Positions 10,181 to 63,862 of a stretch of 64,000 nt of DNA are shown here, piece after piece. Location: assembly GCF_003023845.1 (NCBI RefSeq), contig NZ_PYFT01000001.1:310001-374000 (forward strand), in the 5' to 3' direction. Positions within the stretch are counted from its first letter, which is position 1; each line of letters begins with the position of its first letter. Source of the DNA: Adhaeribacter arboris (GTDB lineage Bacteria > Bacteroidota > Bacteroidia > Cytophagales > Hymenobacteraceae). Below the pieces are notes generated by a model. That model was not told the DNA's origin, searched no databases, and saw nothing but the letters and a program-made list of their open reading frames with translations. The translations under genes were made by a program, and so were the position numbers.

Positions 10181-11032
10181 TTAATGCGATAAACCGGGTT
10201 TGTTAGTTAATTTTTTTTGAAGTTGAATATAAGCTTGGGCGTACCTTTGGCCCATCAATCTTTGGCCTTTAGAATCAAAATGGATATTATCACCTTTATG
10301 GTTTAAGTCGGAGGTGCGTACCACCGATGAGTAAGGATCAGAAGAAGAATACTGTTGGATTTGTTCGTTTATTTGCTCCCATTCTGCTGTGTCTTTAGAA
10401 AAAGTACCCAGCTCTCCCAAAACAATAGGTAAATTTTTATCTCCCAGAATTTCTCTGAATTGACTTAAAAGATTAATTAACCTGGTTTTATAAAGCGGTA
10501 TATCTTCAGGGTGAGCATCGCTTTCGCCTTGGTGCCACAGAATGGCTTTTACTTGCCCTAAGCTTTTTCCGATAGCCGCTTTTTCTTTAAAGTTTGTCAA
10601 GAGTTTCACCTGACGGTGCGTCGAGTCCCCGAGCCATTGGCTAATAGAACTACCCCCAACCGCAGTAGGAATGAGTAAAATAGAAACACTTTCCGGTACT
10701 TGTTTAATTAATGTTTTTGCGAAGGAAAGCCCGCTGCCTAAACCCGTGTTATTGGGTTCGTAAAAGTGGAGGGGTTCTTTGGCCATGATTACTTCGCCTT
10801 TTTGATTAATGGTAAAAATTCTTTCATGCGGAATAGTATCCGCGGGTTCTACTTGTCCGCGGCCGGCCATATTGGATTGTCCCGCCAAAATAAAAACCCA
10901 GGTATTTTCTTTTTCCGGCAAGTCCTTTACCTTTAATTCTGCTTTCGGGAAAAACTGCGTTCTTTTATTGGTTAACTGCGGCTTGCAAGAAATTAAACTA
11001 CAAAAAGCAAGTAGTAATAAAAGTTTTTCCAT
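10181..11032 (-). CDS. Lipoprotein carbohydrate esterase, SASA/SGNH family
   Basis: A 283-residue protein with a lipoprotein signal (LLLLLAFCSLISC). It carries the GQSNMAG block of the sialate O-acetylesterase-like family, with the catalytic Ser at about residue 53. The conserved middle is LIPTAVGGSSISQW, then WHQGESDA, and a C-terminal His in GDNIHFDSKGQ. Such enzymes remove acetyl groups from sugars or plant polysaccharides at the cell surface. It sits immediately after an attC-like site on its 5' side, where a cassette would lie. No attC-like site follows it, so it is either the chromosomal flank of the small array or a cassette that lost its own site. Confidence 0.85.
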   Translation of the reverse strand: MEKLLLLLAFCSLISCKPQLTNKRTQFFPKAELKVKDLPEKENTWVFILAGQSNMAGRGQVEPADTIPHERIFTINQKGEVIMAKEPLHFYEPNNTGLGSGLSFAKTLIKQVPESVSILLIPTAVGGSSISQWLGDSTHRQVKLLTNFKEKAAIGKSLGQVKAILWHQGESDAHPEDIPLYKTRLINLLSQFREILGDKNLPIVLGELGTFSKDTAEWEQINEQIQQYSSSDPYSSVVRTSDLNHKGDNIHFDSKGQRLMGQRYAQAYIQLQKKLTNKPGLSH

Positions 11033-11052
11033 TTTTTAATGTTTTAAAGCTT

Positions 11053-11120
11053 GGTTAACGGTGCTCGTACATGAGGTGAGAGAGGCGTAGCTGGGGCTTT
11101 GCTCATGTACTTTGTTAAGT
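11053..11120 (-). repeat. attC-like site, small array (site 2)
   Basis: Imperfect palindrome read on the minus strand. The 5' end is CAACACTTAACAAAG and the 3' end is GCACCGTTAACC; inner arms GTACATGAGG and GCTCATGTAC pair. Its R'' (ACACTTAAC) complements the 5' end of the cassette it closes (GTTAGGTGTT at 11541-11549), as expected of an integron cassette. Confidence 0.7.
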
Positions 11121-11169
11121 GTTGAATTTTTAAATCATTCAGTTTCTTTATTACTAGTAATTGAATTCT

Positions 11170-11529
11170 TTAAAAACCAGAACATTCTACTTCTGTTACC
11201 AAGCCAGTTTCTGGGTCATAGTATATCACCGTATGGTAAGAAGAACTACTCGTTGGATAATCTATTGAATATTTCTTTGGTTTTCCTTTTTCAAAAGAAG
11301 TCCAGTAGTTATACGACTTTTCATTTTCATTGTAGTTCATTCCACCCATAATAACCTTGGCTTCTTCAAGTGGTATTCCCACTTTAACTTTTTGGCAGTT
11401 TTTTATATATAGTTCGCTGTACTTGCTTTCAAAGTAAAATTCTCTGATGGCAAAAACGGAGGCCGCTACTCCAACTAATGCAAAGAAGAAGAGCAAGACA
11501 ATAAATGTAGTTTCTAAAGCTTTCTTCAT
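11170..11529 (-). CDS. Cassette gene: small membrane-anchored protein, BamE/SmpA-like
   Basis: A 119-residue protein with one N-terminal TM helix (FIVLLFFFALVGVAASVFA). A periplasmic domain of about 85 residues contains VKVGIPLEEAKVIMGG, similar to the start of SmpA/BamE folds where a helix follows a conserved Gly-Met/Ile turn. Its start codon lies 11 bp inside the cassette 5' boundary and its stop is 50 bp before the attC-like site, a typical integron cassette layout. Family assignment is tentative. Confidence 0.65.
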   Translation of the reverse strand: MKKALETTFIVLLFFFALVGVAASVFAIREFYFESKYSELYIKNCQKVKVGIPLEEAKVIMGGMNYNENEKSYNYWTSFEKGKPKKYSIDYPTSSSSYHTVIYYDPETGLVTEVECSGF

Positions 11530-11540
11530 AATTTTTTAAC

Positions 11541-11610
11541 ACCTAACGGCTAGTGCATGAGACGGGCAGGGCCGTCGGCCGTAGCACGGCTTATGCACAT
11601 TGTTGTGGTG
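11541..11610 (-). repeat. attC-like site, small array (site 1)
   Basis: Minus strand: 5' end ACACCACAACAATG, 3' end CTAGCCGTTAGGTG. The R' core GTTAGGT fits the attC consensus GTTRRRY. Arms TGCATAAGCC and GTCTCATGCA pair, and the centre is GGCCGACGGCC. R'' (CACCACAAC) complements GTTGTGGTG at the 5' end of the cassette it closes (12151-12159). Confidence 0.75.
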
Positions 11611-11620
11611 TCGTAATTTT

Positions 11621-12139
11621 TTAATTCCCACACCCGTCACATTTTGTTTGAATGTAGTACCAATCATTTCCCAAATCCAAACTGTCGGTGATTTCTGTAA
11701 CCAGATTCTTTGTGAAAGATGGTCTGATTCTAGATTTGGAGAAGTATAGTTGTCCGTGATAACTTACCTGTCTATAATTACAAGTCCGATAATGGATTTG
11801 CTTTGTTTCTCCTTTATATGAAATAAATCCCCAGTCTTTTGAAGAAAACCATTTTTTCAATTTAGGAAGTTTTATTGATTTTTCTCTTTCATATTTTTCA
11901 GGAAAGTCCGTCCTTATGAAAAGGTCCTGTTCATCAAGACTTGCTATCTTGAGCGCCGTCTTATTCTGTGTAATTTCTTCCTCAACATCCTGAAATTCTT
12001 TTAGGATTTTAGGCGCTTCATTTCTCCATTCAGCTACCTTTTCTTCGCATTTATTAAAGTTATTAAAGGAATTACATTGTCCGAGTAGGGAACAAGTCAA
12101 TGTAAGAACGAGCACCTTATAAAAATTCCCTTTGTTCAT
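11621..12139 (-). CDS. Cassette gene: hypothetical lipoprotein
   Basis: 172 residues with a lipoprotein signal (LVLTLTCSLLGQC). The mature part is charged and begins with a helical segment (CEEKVAEWRNEAPKILKEF), then a beta-rich C-terminal half ending in a CDGCGN cluster. I do not recognise a family. It fills the cassette between the 12159 boundary and the attC-like site at 11541-11610, with the start codon 20 bp inside. Confidence 0.65.
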   Translation of the reverse strand: MNKGNFYKVLVLTLTCSLLGQCNSFNNFNKCEEKVAEWRNEAPKILKEFQDVEEEITQNKTALKIASLDEQDLFIRTDFPEKYEREKSIKLPKLKKWFSSKDWGFISYKGETKQIHYRTCNYRQVSYHGQLYFSKSRIRPSFTKNLVTEITDSLDLGNDWYYIQTKCDGCGN

Positions 12140-12150
12140 AATTATTTATG

Positions 12151-12232
12151 CACCACAACTAGCGGATAAACGTCATTATTAGGTATATCCTGCCAATATA
12201 GCGGTATATACGTAATCAGTTATTTCAAAAAA
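12151..12232 (-). repeat. Upstream boundary of the small array; degenerate attC-like palindrome
   Basis: The cassette 5' end reads CTAGTTGTGGTG on the minus strand. Beyond it, 12160-12232 forms an imperfect palindrome: GGATAAACGTCATTA on one side, GTATATACGTAATCAG on the other, with GAAATAAC as a possible R''. It could be a decayed attC or an attI-like end. No integrase gene is adjacent; pgk lies next. Confidence 0.4.
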
Positions 12233-12310: not shown

Positions 12311-12344
12311 AAAACACCCCGGCTGTTATCAACCGGGGTGTTTT
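12311..12344 (-). terminator. Terminator after pgk
   Basis: AAAACACCCCGG, a 10-nt loop, CCGGGGTGTTTT. A perfect 12-bp stem that ends in T-runs on both strands, 21 bp past the pgk stop. Confidence 0.85.
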
Positions 12345-58388: not shown

Positions 58389-58440
58389 ACCCAACGGTTT
58401 GGCTAAAAAGTGGTTTATGCTTTTTAGGCTGTGTTAGCAG
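58389..58440 (-). repeat. attC-like site 7 (CTAAAAAG type)
   Basis: Minus strand: 5' end CTGCTAACACAGCC, 3' end CCAAACCGTTGGGT, inner stem CTAAAAAG/CTTTTTAG. R'' CTGCTAAC complements GTTAGCAG at the far end of its cassette (58908). The stop of the gene at 58424 lies inside it. Confidence 0.75.
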
Positions 58441-58907: not shown

Positions 58908-58964
58908 TGCTAACGGCTTGGCCTATGCGGCGGCATAGCTGCCGTATAGGTGTGGTTAGCGGTA
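58908..58964 (-). repeat. attC-like site 6
   Basis: Minus strand: 5' end TACCGCTAACCACACC, 3' end AAGCCGTTAGCAG, arms CCTATACGG/GGCCTATGCGG-like with inner GGCATAGCTGCC. R'' CTACCGCTAAC complements the 5' end of its cassette (GTTAGCAGTA at 60620) with one mismatch. Confidence 0.75.
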
Positions 58965-59800: not shown

Positions 59801-60586
59801 GTTGTGGACTACAAAGTATGATGTTTGGCTTTATGTCTATTGCGATAGTCAAACATCAGGTTTAGACTTGCTAAATGGTTTTCCTTCTTTTTGGAGAAGC
59901 AGGTTGTTTTTCTGACGAACCGTCTGTTTCTGGCTCTGATGCAAGTATTCACGCCTTCTATGTTTTTAGTGTAAGCTTTTCCTATCGTGTGCTTTGTCGG
60001 GGGGATTACCTGAGCAAACGCTTTCCAATGATCAGTACAATATTGTTCTATTTCCACTCCTTTTAGCTTTTTGAGTAGCTGGCGTACTGTTTTAGCGCTT
60101 CGGCCGCCACAACTATAAGCCAGTACTTCATCTGTTTGGGGACAGTAAGCATACAACAACCAGTATTTTCCTTTCTTGCGCTTTCCGACAAAGCTCCAGA
60201 CTTCATCGATCTGTACGGATCTATAATGCTTTTGGGTTGGTTGAATCTTAAGGGCATTCCCCTGTCGGCACAAGTTGCTTAGCACACACTTTCTACTCAC
60301 TTCCAGCAACTTTTCAATGTCACGAACACCATTATTTCTTTCCAGAAGACGCCGTATCAACCGCTTGGTAGTCGGATCCGCTCCTCTATAGCGATATATT
60401 GGCTGAAATTGCTTCTGGCAATTACGACATAGAAGGTTCTGAGAACCATTCTTTTTCTTGCCATTTTTTACTACCTTGCTGCTCTGGCAGTGGGGACAGT
60501 TTATTTTGATCTGAACTTCGAACATTCCATCATCTTAAACACTTCACTGCCTCTTTTTATCCCATCATACTTTCTTTACCACTACC
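59801..60586 (-). mobile_element. IS1-family insertion sequence
   Basis: About 786 bp. Imperfect terminal repeats: left GTTGTGGAC ... AAAGTATGATG, right GGTAGTGG ... AAAGTATGATG (reverse strand). A 9-bp direct repeat AAATAGATA flanks it (59792-59800 and 60587-60595), the size typical of IS1. It carries one transposase gene. Confidence 0.9.
59809..60525 (-). CDS. IS1-family transposase, single ORF
   Basis: 238 residues: zinc-binding N-terminus (CPHCQSSKVVKNGKKKNG, CRNCQKQF), a helix-turn-helix (DIEKLLEVSRKCV), and a DDE-type core (VQIDEVWSFVG, CTDHWKAF, ending FRNRHK). The usual IS1 insA/insB frameshift is absent; one continuous ORF, as in some IS1 members. Intact and probably active. Confidence 0.9.
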   Translation of the reverse strand: MFEVQIKINCPHCQSSKVVKNGKKKNGSQNLLCRNCQKQFQPIYRYRGADPTTKRLIRRLLERNNGVRDIEKLLEVSRKCVLSNLCRQGNALKIQPTQKHYRSVQIDEVWSFVGKRKKGKYWLLYAYCPQTDEVLAYSCGGRSAKTVRQLLKKLKGVEIEQYCTDHWKAFAQVIPPTKHTIGKAYTKNIEGVNTCIRARNRRFVRKTTCFSKKKENHLASLNLMFDYRNRHKAKHHTL

Positions 60587-60619: not shown

Positions 60620-60692
60620 CTGCTAACGGTCTCGTGCATGAGGCGTGCAAGGCCGTCGGCCGTAGGATGCCTTATGCGCTTTGTTAGCCACT
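60620..60692 (-). repeat. attC-like site 5
   Basis: Minus strand: 5' end AGTGGCTAACAAAG, 3' end GACCGTTAGCAG; arms GTGCATGAGG/CCTTATGCGC; centre GGCCGTCGGCC. R'' complements GTTAGCCAC at 61431. Confidence 0.8.
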
Positions 60693-61430: not shown

Positions 61431-61505
61431 GTGGCTAACGGTGCTCGTATATGCGATTTGCAAGGCTTTAGCCGAAGCATGAAGTATATACTTGGTTGTA
61501 TGGTG
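61431..61505 (-). repeat. attC-like site 4
   Basis: Minus strand: 5' end CACCATACAACCAAG, 3' end CACCGTTAGCCAC. R'' CCATACAAC complements GTTGTATGG at 61839, the other end of its cassette, exactly. Confidence 0.8.
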
Positions 61506-61838: not shown

Positions 61839-61912
61839 ACCATACAACGGTCTTGTGTAAACGTCGGCGAGGCCGTCGGCCGAAGCTGAGGTTTACACGT
61901 GGTTAGGGGGCA
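61839..61912 (-). repeat. attC-like site 3
   Basis: Minus strand: 5' end GCCCCCTAACCACG, 3' end GACCGTTGTATGG; centre GGCCGACGGCC. R'' CCCCTAAC complements GTTAGGGG at 62481. Confidence 0.8.
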
Positions 61913-62468
61913 GTTGTTTTAAGTTATTGTTCAGAATATCCCTTGTCTCCATCAGAGCGAATCCTAATAGATTAAGACCTTCCCAATGTTCGGGATTTTC
62001 GGCTTTTTTGTCGTCGACTGATAACCCAATTCCCCAGATATTATCAACAGGACTTGCCTCTACAAGTATTCTATCTTTAGTATTTATTAAGAATTCTTGC
62101 AAGTCTTGATGCTGTCCGAATTTTTGGAGGCTTCCATTGACCACAATTTCAAAGCGTTGTTCTTCCCAAACAGAATCATCGAAGTTTTTGACCTCACGTC
62201 CGATGGCTTTGGCTTCACCAGGTGTTCTTGCTTTTACTATTTTATCAAAAGCATCACTGTCACCAAACAGGTGTGCTTTCTGAGCCATCATCCAATGCTC
62301 TGCGGTTTTATAAACTACATTATCAACCGTAAAAGGGGCAACCCACCACTGGCTAAAACAAGAGGCTGTAATTTCTTTTTTATTTGACTGGTGACCCCAG
62401 AAGTAGAGATATTTAAATCTTTTTCCTTCTTCCAAGTTTCTTTTAAGCCATTCAATACTGTAATTCAT
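61893..62468 (-). CDS. Cassette gene: NADAR/YbiA-like protein
   Basis: 191 residues. The true start is ATG 62468 (MNYSIEWLKRNL); the longer ORF runs back into the attC site. NADAR motifs: FWGHQSNKKEI, CFSQWW, TAEHWMMAQKA, GIGLS. NADAR proteins act on ADP-ribose/NAD-type metabolites or are nucleic-acid N-glycosidases; which applies here is unknown. The stop overlaps attC-like site 3. Confidence 0.85.
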   Translation of the reverse strand: MNYSIEWLKRNLEEGKRFKYLYFWGHQSNKKEITASCFSQWWVAPFTVDNVVYKTAEHWMMAQKAHLFGDSDAFDKIVKARTPGEAKAIGREVKNFDDSVWEEQRFEIVVNGSLQKFGQHQDLQEFLINTKDRILVEASPVDNIWGIGLSVDDKKAENPEHWEGLNLLGFALMETRDILNNNLKQLPPNHV

Positions 62469-62480
62469 TTTTCTTTCAAT

Positions 62481-62556
62481 TGCCCCTAACGGCCTCGTGC
62501 ATGAGGCGTGCAAGGCCGTCGGCCGTTGCATGGCTTATGCACCTTGTTAGCCAAAG
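62481..62556 (-). repeat. attC-like site 2
   Basis: Minus strand: 5' end TTTGGCTAACAAGG, 3' end GGCCGTTAGGGG; arms GTGCATGAGG/GCTTATGCAC; centre GGCCGTCGGCC. R'' TTGGCTAAC complements GTTAGCCAA at 62990 exactly. Confidence 0.82.
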
Positions 62557-62989: not shown

Positions 62990-63058
62990 TTGGCTAACGG
63001 TTGGTATATGCAAAGCCCGTAGCGGAGCGAGGGTTTTGCATATGCAGTGTTAGAGGGT
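62990..63058 (-). repeat. attC-like site 1
   Basis: Minus strand: 5' end CACCCTCTAACACTGC, 3' end AACCGTTAGCCAA; arms GCATATGC/GGTATATGC-like and CCCTCGCTCCGC centre. R'' CCCTCTAAC complements GTTAAAGGG at 63805 with one mismatch. Confidence 0.78.
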
Positions 63059-63066
63059 GTTTTCTT

Positions 63067-63423
63067 TTAGTATTCCTGAATAAGCACATTCGTCGGAATA
63101 TTTAAGGTTTTATGCAGGTTCCTTATCATTTCCAATGTGAGTTTTCTTTTCCTGTTCAACACTTCGCTTACCCTACTCTTGAAACCTAGAACTTCGGCCA
63201 AGTCTTTCTGCTTTATTCCAAGTTGTTCCATTCTGAACTTCACCGCCTCAATCGGGTCTGGTGCCTCTATTGGGAAGTGTTCCTTCTCATAGGAATCAAT
63301 CAGGAAAGAAAGCACCTCCAATTCATCGCCTTCGTGTGTATCAGGCTCTGCATCAAATATCACTTCCAGCCTCTGAAGGGCCAGTTGGTAATCTCCCTCT
63401 GTTTTTATTAATTTAATATTCAT
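63067..63423 (-). CDS. higA: HigA-type antitoxin
   Basis: 118 residues (ATG 63423; a TTG at 63432 would add three). An N-terminal helical part, then an XRE HTH (RMEQLGIKQKDLAEVLGFK, RVSEVLNRKRKLTLEMI). It starts 11 bp after the HigB stop, the toxin-first HigBA order. Represses its own operon and neutralises HigB. The pair is one cassette. Confidence 0.88.
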   Translation of the reverse strand: MNIKLIKTEGDYQLALQRLEVIFDAEPDTHEGDELEVLSFLIDSYEKEHFPIEAPDPIEAVKFRMEQLGIKQKDLAEVLGFKSRVSEVLNRKRKLTLEMIRNLHKTLNIPTNVLIQEY

Positions 63424-63434
63424 CTCTTCCAAGT

Positions 63435-63728
63435 TTAGATTTTAGTTGCGTCAACTTTATCGTATTCTGCGTGGGTGCCTACGAAGCGAATCCATACAAT
63501 TCCGTACTTGTAGTTGATTCTTACAATTAACCTGTAATTATTTCCCTTTATATTGAAGACCATCCTATGGTCCTCCAAGATGCTTGCAGAAGGATAATCC
63601 TTCTTTATGTCGTTCGGGGACTTCCAGTCTGCTTGCTCCGCTTCATTGTACCAGGATTTTAATTGCTGTTCGCTATCGGCATGCTTTTCCCAGAAATCCC
63701 GCAGGGTCCGTTTTGCAATTACTCTCAC
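63435..63728 (-). CDS. higB: HigB-type toxin
   Basis: 97 residues starting with GTG at 63728: MRVIAKRTLRDFWEKHADS, LEDHRMVFNIKGNNYRLIV, IVWIRFVGTHAEYDKV. A ribosome-dependent mRNA endonuclease of the HigB family, with the conserved VGTHxEYD end. Sits directly upstream of higA in one cassette. Confidence 0.9.
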   Translation of the reverse strand: MRVIAKRTLRDFWEKHADSEQQLKSWYNEAEQADWKSPNDIKKDYPSASILEDHRMVFNIKGNNYRLIVRINYKYGIVWIRFVGTHAEYDKVDATKI

Positions 63729-63804: not shown

Positions 63805-63862
63805 CCCTTTAACGGGCCGCGGCTAAAAAGCGTTTTAATGCTTTTTAGGTATTGTTGGCATT
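63805..63862 (-). repeat. attC-like site 0
   Basis: Minus strand: 5' end AATGCCAACAATACC, 3' end GGCCCGTTAAAGGG; inner CTAAAAAG/CTTTTTAG stem, same type as site 7. Its R'' should complement the 5' end of the HepT cassette, which lies outside the window. Confidence 0.75.

Follow-up and report, generated by a model that had tools for sequence, protein, structure and literature searches.

The stretch of the Adhaeribacter arboris chromosome that we analyzed (64,000 nucleotides, hereafter the window) carries two gene cassettes in head-to-tail order at positions 12159-11053 of the minus strand, flanked by pgk and a SASA-family lipoprotein gene; they begin at a putative attI-like dock. With a probability of roughly 0.8, we read this feature as a dock to which the two cassettes were joined at G|TT, and sequence comparisons point to a 480-aa tyrosine recombinase as the most likely enzyme, which would act in trans on some 20 docks of the same chromosome. 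In this reading every cassette is a gene that lacks a promoter and is paired with an attC hairpin of its own, and site-specific recombination at G|TT would have joined it, in the form of a free circle, to the dock. The bottom strand of attC is probably folded into a hairpin during joining, as in integrons, and the N-terminal repeats of the recombinase may recognize the folded site.

Two cassettes beside pgk

Read on the minus strand, the first half of the feature runs from TAG|TTGTGGTGC through a 172-aa open reading frame (start MNKGNFYKVLVLTLTCSLLGQC) to CACCACAAC and a hairpin, and the second half from CCG|TTAGGTGTT through a 119-aa open reading frame to AACACTTAAC, a hairpin and CCG|TTAACC. 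With limits set by the G|TT rule, cassette 1 occupies 12158-11547 and cassette 2 occupies 11546-11059; each starts directly after the G of the motif, runs on into its attC-like site and closes on G. The first-pass annotation had assigned lipoprotein or anchored-protein genes to them, and by eye we found a lipobox in the 172-aa frame (11621-12139) and a hydrophobic N-terminus in the 119-aa frame (11170-11529); searches of NCBIfam and Pfam gave no match to either protein at E ≤ 0.001. The attC-like sites are located at 11541-11608 (cassette 1, 77.7 bits, the bottom strand being the plus strand) and at 11053-11120 (cassette 2, 65.4 bits). The array is flanked on the right by the SASA-family (PF03629) lipoprotein gene (10181-11032), which lies outside the cassettes, and on the other side by an inverted repeat 3' of pgk (12311-12344), by eye a terminator, in a flank common to the nearest relative, G024. 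All of these features are on the minus strand.

The bit scores refer to a covariance model, R1, which was seeded with six sites of the window, two beside pgk and four in the main array, read on the putative attC bottom strand; the six seeds match it by construction. Applied to the whole genome at E ≤ 1, R1 gave 44 matches, including some that are the same site on the opposite strand, and together with looser searches of selected loci this led to a working set of 57 attC sites. The earlier assignment of the two pgk-side sites to the hairpin family of the main array was confirmed, as the shared model finds more sites genome-wide. A home-made regular-expression finder of attC sites was dropped in favor of covariance models because its false positives were overwhelming. 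By DNA folding alone, the region 11540-11612 reached a z of −3.1 and the region 11050-11124 one of only −1.4; the site at 11053-11120 folds weakly, and its bottom strand is no more stable than its top strand. The bottom strand was the more stable in 235 of 246 attC sites, an observation to which we give little weight because R1 was built on that same strand. A search of the window against Rfam gave no match, and tblastn found no recombinase remnant in it.

The annotation had also proposed an end-swap rule, by which the start of a cassette is complementary to its closing box. This rule holds: the quoted complements are exact in cassette 1 (9/9) and agree at 9 of 10 positions in cassette 2, and the R' and R'' ends of an integron cassette are described as having 9-11 complementary nucleotides (PMC2727003). 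In 167 consecutive attC pairs from this genome and its relatives (3 further pairs, without GTT or AAC, were excluded), on average 5.48 of the 7 positions compared agreed between a cassette start and the reverse-complemented R'' box of that cassette, and shuffled pairing gave a mean of 2.45 of 7 (sd 0.10, maximum 2.77 in 2000 shuffles). The two boxes within one site matched at 2.66 of 7 positions (n = 235). Circular cassettes leave such a pattern when they are joined at G|TT, and the integron hallmark of attC sites with complementary cassette ends is present here.

A tyrosine recombinase gene directly before cassette arrays

The gene of the 480-aa tyrosine recombinase (C1:6676226-6677668) stands directly before the largest array of the genome (6.679-6.690 Mb), about 0.68 Mb from the pgk-side array if the chromosome is circular and 6.35 Mb along the contig. 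Among NCBIfam profiles, the protein matches NF040815 best (208 bits, just below the cut-off of 220). Against the IntI profile TIGR02249 it scored 201 bits (cut-off 265) with profile positions 180-241 unmatched, and the insertion specific to IntI is absent from it. The catalytic residues were invariant in 12 of 12 aligned recombinases, and both these residues and the catalytic fold are those of Xer/XerA enzymes.

We surveyed linkage at 78 loci, drawn from the best 80 of 181 relatives of the recombinase. The genera named among these loci are Pontibacter, Rufibacter, Adhaeribacter, Botryobacter and Sabulibacter, and the loci of 36-53% identity belong to other Bacteroidota and to a few MAGs of other phyla. 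After removal of 14 opposite-strand echoes, R1 found 193 sites at the 78 loci, all on one strand, with 192 in 328 kb downstream of the gene versus 1 in 671 kb upstream. Downstream attC sites were present at 41 of the 57 family-type loci; at 15 of the 16 others the contig ends no more than 1.4 kb further on, and at the last (L184), whose frame is broken, it continues for 10 kb. Among the 21 loci outside the family-type set, R1 matched at an Algoriphagus locus alone (L190, two sites, both downstream), and the repeats at L190, L181 and L195 formed no clear array. For 10 of these 21 distant relatives (L177-L199) the search covered no more than 513 bp 3' of the gene, where the contig ends as if the assembly breaks at repeats. 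A decayed second relative of the recombinase with two stops (39% identity) is located at G000:C1:6723295-6724326 (L059).

attI-like docks across the chromosome

At 43 of 47 aligned recombinase loci (the set after duplicate removal; 2 were skipped), a conserved site some 100-150 bp 3' of the recombinase stop ends in TAG|TT, the start of the first cassette. We call this site a dock; like attI it stands next to the recombinase gene, and "attI-like" is a judgment from position and G|TT. The dock model R2, built from 31 sites, contains a dyad with two-sided changes in 8 of 10 pairs, which was reached by 3 of 500 shuffles, and a covariation score reached by 0 of 500. With regard to a promoter such as the Pc of integrons, which drives the array, TATATTA is conserved upstream of the dock in the locus alignment and, by eye, is also present at several docks of this genome. 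Docks at L055 15640-15731, L052 8057-8160, L044, L046, L049 and L207 have, by eye, three or four alternating inverted arms of ~13 bp, not two.

In this genome R2 gave 27 matches at E ≤ 5, and the matches at E ≤ 1, with one opposite-strand echo removed, form a set of 21 docks. A modeled attC site on the right strand lies within 3 kb downstream of 16 of them, and one has an attC site upstream; the remaining five are followed by cassettes that, by eye, end in divergent attC-like hairpins. A dock stands no more than 14 kb upstream of 53 of the 57 attC sites, and the other four are without one. An intact recombinase gene adjoins only one dock, and tblastn found no recombinase remnant at 13 other dock loci. 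Five relatives from three genera have 60 docks, and 28 of these are within 5 kb of a right-strand attC site, compared with a mean of 0.39 and a maximum of 4 in 1000 random placements; two have an upstream one. These relatives have 115 attC sites, 76 of them within 14 kb downstream of a dock and 39 without one; the poorest of the five, G003, has attC sites at 3 of its 11 docks and 3 of its 21 attC sites near a dock.

The dock that borders the mini-array on the left (12157-12205, minus strand) corresponds to an R2 match at 12189-12157 that is weak (16.7 bits, E 0.5 genome-wide) and whose end is the exact TT of TAG|TT. If the E-value is taken as it stands, a chance match would end on any one specified base and strand with a probability on the order of 1e-7, the E-values of the tool being rough. 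The two cassettes had been described as a satellite of the main array, which was not borne out: each array starts at its own attI-like dock, and these are 2 of the 21 detected. With two attC sites and no adjoining integrase gene, the mini-array fits the definition of a CALIN (at least 2 attC sites, no adjoining integrase gene); unlike a CALIN, it begins at an attI-like dock and is part of a genome-wide set.

The same place in related genomes

Seven other genomes of the genus were compared, of which three keep the order of pgk and the SASA gene and four could not be aligned at this place. The first-pass annotation had proposed a presence/absence comparison at 11053-12159, and the outcome that would have counted against its suggestion was not seen: rather than being carried by all relatives, both cassette genes are missing from all three that align. 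In G024, whose pgk is 95% identical, the flank and that of the window can be aligned from the terminator of pgk up to TAGTT exactly, past which they diverge; this place holds a dock match of 12.9 bits and unrelated cargo, a different open reading frame with a stop, and gave no attC match. The other two relatives, G009 and G003, have unrelated genes there, with neither a dock match nor an attC match, and a conserved exact empty site was not found among the three. In a DNA search of 59 genomes, the cassette 2 gene was found in G033 (79%) and partially in G022 (66%), all other matches being pieces of attC. The match in G033 has no attC site and stops at the gene, and therefore the gene is not a cassette in that genome. 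Elsewhere in the A. arboris genome the DNA search gave attC matches only, with no copy of either pgk-side cassette.

Distribution in the family and the candidate enzyme

Among 241 genomes of the order, many attC matches per genome (8 to at least 21) were seen in the family of the window only, and 10 genomes of other families had one match each. In a survey of 120 family genomes, in which the best 42 candidates per genome were scored for the R1 counts, attC sites were present in 70, docks in 69, the recombinase in 66 and an IntI gene over the cut-off in 2; such counts overstate the number of events because related genomes are not independent. All 69 dock genomes fall within the 70 with attC sites, and the exception, G107, has one attC match. 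The number of docks per genome ranges from 3 to 27 with a median of 12. Of the 69 dock genomes, 61 gave a match to the recombinase, which was close to full length in 52 (one of them with a stop) and fragmentary in 9; matches were also present in 5 of the remaining 51 genomes, all of them partial (45-48%). In the relatives, a dock and an array always come directly after the recombinase gene. On the strength of this linkage and co-occurrence, we consider the 480-aa enzyme the leading candidate for the predicted cassette recombinase; linkage alone does not prove that it is the catalyst.

The 480-aa recombinase could instead be mere cargo linked to the docks, or a mobilizer of docks, with another tyrosine recombinase of the host moving the cassettes in trans. 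We regard this as unlikely. It would agree with the eight dock genomes that have no recombinase match (G009, G024, G042, G057, G082, G098, G104 and G118), among which G009 has 12 docks without either the 480-aa enzyme or IntI, and with the other tyrosine recombinases encoded in the A. arboris genome. However, the order of recombinase, dock and array is fixed across the five named genera, the active site of the 480-aa enzyme is conserved, some of the eight genomes are drafts, and loss of a gene after array formation is ordinary.

Slightly less probable still is the explanation that an IntI, now broken or lost, placed cassettes at near-random GTT (attG) sites and left the arrays behind as CALINs. 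Insertion at attG by IntI has been published (Loot et al. 2024, as cited in PMC12444791), and CALINs are reported in ~50% of Xanthomonas genomes (PMC12444791). A genuine IntI gene does exist in this genome, the sole one over the cut-off (C1:1659408-1660301; L001 1501-2394; TIGR02249, 297 bits), and G024 has an open one of 346 aa. A stop within the frame breaks the former gene, in which, by eye, Lys also stands in place of the catalytic Arg and the GKGKKD motif is missing. R1 found no attC match in the 40 kb around it, and none within 1.5 kb of the gene in G024. Because the gene in this genome is broken and R1 matched nothing in the 40 kb, the cassettes were probably moved by an enzyme of another kind than IntI. 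The two family genomes with IntI, one gene being broken, also stand against 70 with attC sites. Finally, the targets consist of a conserved 53-nt dock that is also found after the 480-aa recombinase gene, not a bare GTT. An attG site is by definition neither attI nor attC, and the target beside pgk resembles the attI-like dock, though weakly. Like the published attC x attG insertions, the cassettes lie outside a main integron and are cut at G|TT; unlike those insertions, they are located at a dock common to the recombinase locus and not at a scattered short consensus. The suggestion that an integrase worked at more than one spot in this chromosome stands for recombinase action at several spots, and an integrase of the IntI kind is improbable in that role.

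The main array and movement of cassettes

The main array starts at a dock at C1:374565-374617, 565 bases beyond the window end. Its attC-like sites in the window, all on the minus strand, include the four R1 seeds at 62484-62552 (87 bits), 61842-61908 (68 bits), 61433-61501 (68.6 bits) and 60621-60689 (82.5 bits), two further R1 matches at 62992-63055 (32 bits) and 58908-58961 (32.4 bits), and two sites at 63807-63860 and 58389-58439 that were recognized by eye only and have no R1 match. The cargo at 63067-63728 is a gene for a HigB-type toxin (PF09907) together with one for an HTH antitoxin, and at 59809-60525 a 238-aa transposase-like open reading frame splits, by eye, a lipoprotein cassette. 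A NADAR cassette at 61893-62531 recurs, 100% identical, at a distance of 2 Mb.

Cassettes that are 95-100% identical occur at different docks within the chromosome. At 2.37 Mb, an IS splits a cassette that is 100% identical to the one at 371845-372490 in the main array; a cassette of ~570-590 bp has copies at 126.3 kb, 2.837 Mb and 5.196 Mb plus two in the 6.68 Mb array; and further cassettes have copies at two or three places. This near-identity points to recent movement, so the word "once" in the earlier suggestion may be wrong.

It is highly improbable that an IS or segmental duplication spread whole blocks of dock and array, and not single cassettes. A leader and an IS copy are indeed common to the docks at 374.6 kb and 2836.6 kb (2156 bp, 92.8%), and 156 bp (87.8%) to those at 125 kb and 374.6 kb, but the same cassettes appear at different docks in a changed order and with other neighbors, bordered by the G|TT core, and cassette ends pair within cassettes and not between them. 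Such block spread may well account for the dispersal of the docks themselves. Copies of the IS (1.69 kb, 510-aa transposase) lie upstream of both of these 374.6 kb and 2836.6 kb docks and within the cassette at 2.37 Mb (L009 2566-4700; L050; L049), and the docks of this set have a leader of at least 150 bp in common; the IS and the leader are a possible route of dock spread.

Predicted structure of the recombinase

An AlphaFold model of the 480-aa recombinase, based on 25 sequences, reached a pLDDT of 83.5. Its second half is predicted to be Xer/IntI-like, with Foldseek matches to 5HXY, 2A3V and 4A8E. The N-terminal extension is predicted to form two repeats (strand-strand-helix-strand-strand-helix), and modeled alone these repeats gave a pLDDT of 83.4 and a pTM of 0.44. 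Foldseek found no match for the N-terminal half alone at E ≤ 0.001, the list being noise of HIV reverse transcriptase. When the entries of that list were compared by VIA-align, the XPB damage-recognition domain (2FZ4) ranked top (Z 6.5, 56 residues, 2.1 Å), and the HARP domain of SMARCAL1 (4O66) had a Z of 3.4; a Z under 8 may reflect a common arrangement. The Pfam HARP profile matched 2 of 8 full-length recombinases below its cut-off and gave no match to the family-type one, and the N-terminus of one recombinase matches 4O66 at E 0.003. These weak likenesses suggest that the repeats are possibly HARP/XPB-like, in a protein that, unlike HARP and XPB proteins, has no helicase part. We infer with modest confidence that they are a structure-specific DNA-binding module that replaces the IntI insertion, which has been described as essential to integron function (PMC8138268).

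Relation to integrons

The system shares with integrons the attC-like bottom-strand hairpins with a G|TT core and complementary cassette ends, an attI-like site between the recombinase gene and the first cassette, and a cargo of toxin-antitoxin and other genes of unknown function. It differs from them in a recombinase that lacks the IntI-specific region and has extra N-terminal repeats, in a recombinase gene that lies upstream of the cassettes in the same direction, and in having 3-27 docks per genome versus one attI beside intI. Because it would work like an integron yet lacks the IntI feature, we do not class it as a classical integron. Comparison of the genomes suggests that it is probably a second kind of integron, in which a tyrosine recombinase with a HARP-like domain, whose hairpin-reading part is unrelated to that of IntI, fills the docks of each chromosome in Pontibacter, Rufibacter, Adhaeribacter and their kin, so that the whole chromosome serves as a cassette platform.

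Integrons have been thought to be nearly absent from Bacteroidota, and IntegronFinder 2.0 is reported to have found one complete integron in Bacteroidetes, in Salinibacter ruber (PMC9024848). Our search of the open PMC literature, a scope outside which subscription papers and preprints fall, found no paper on integrons of these genera, and a Xer enzyme linked to cassette arrays was not found in the literature and databases searched. The hosts in this family are common soil and freshwater bacteria, and their genomes carry dozens of cassettes each together with an enzyme that has no IntI insertion. If our reading is true, recombination of folded hairpins has been achieved with a different recognition module, tools based on IntI profiles overlook such systems, and many docks around the chromosome, not one array, can serve for cassette expression. 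Distant relatives of the recombinase in other Bacteroidota may run more such systems. The catalytic half is closest to XerA/archaeal Xer and IntI4 (5HXY, 4A8E and 2A3V; 208, 207 and 199 bits by profile comparison; Foldseek E 1e-15 to 4e-14), and unlike the Xer enzymes the 480-aa recombinase has ~170 aa extra at its N-terminus.
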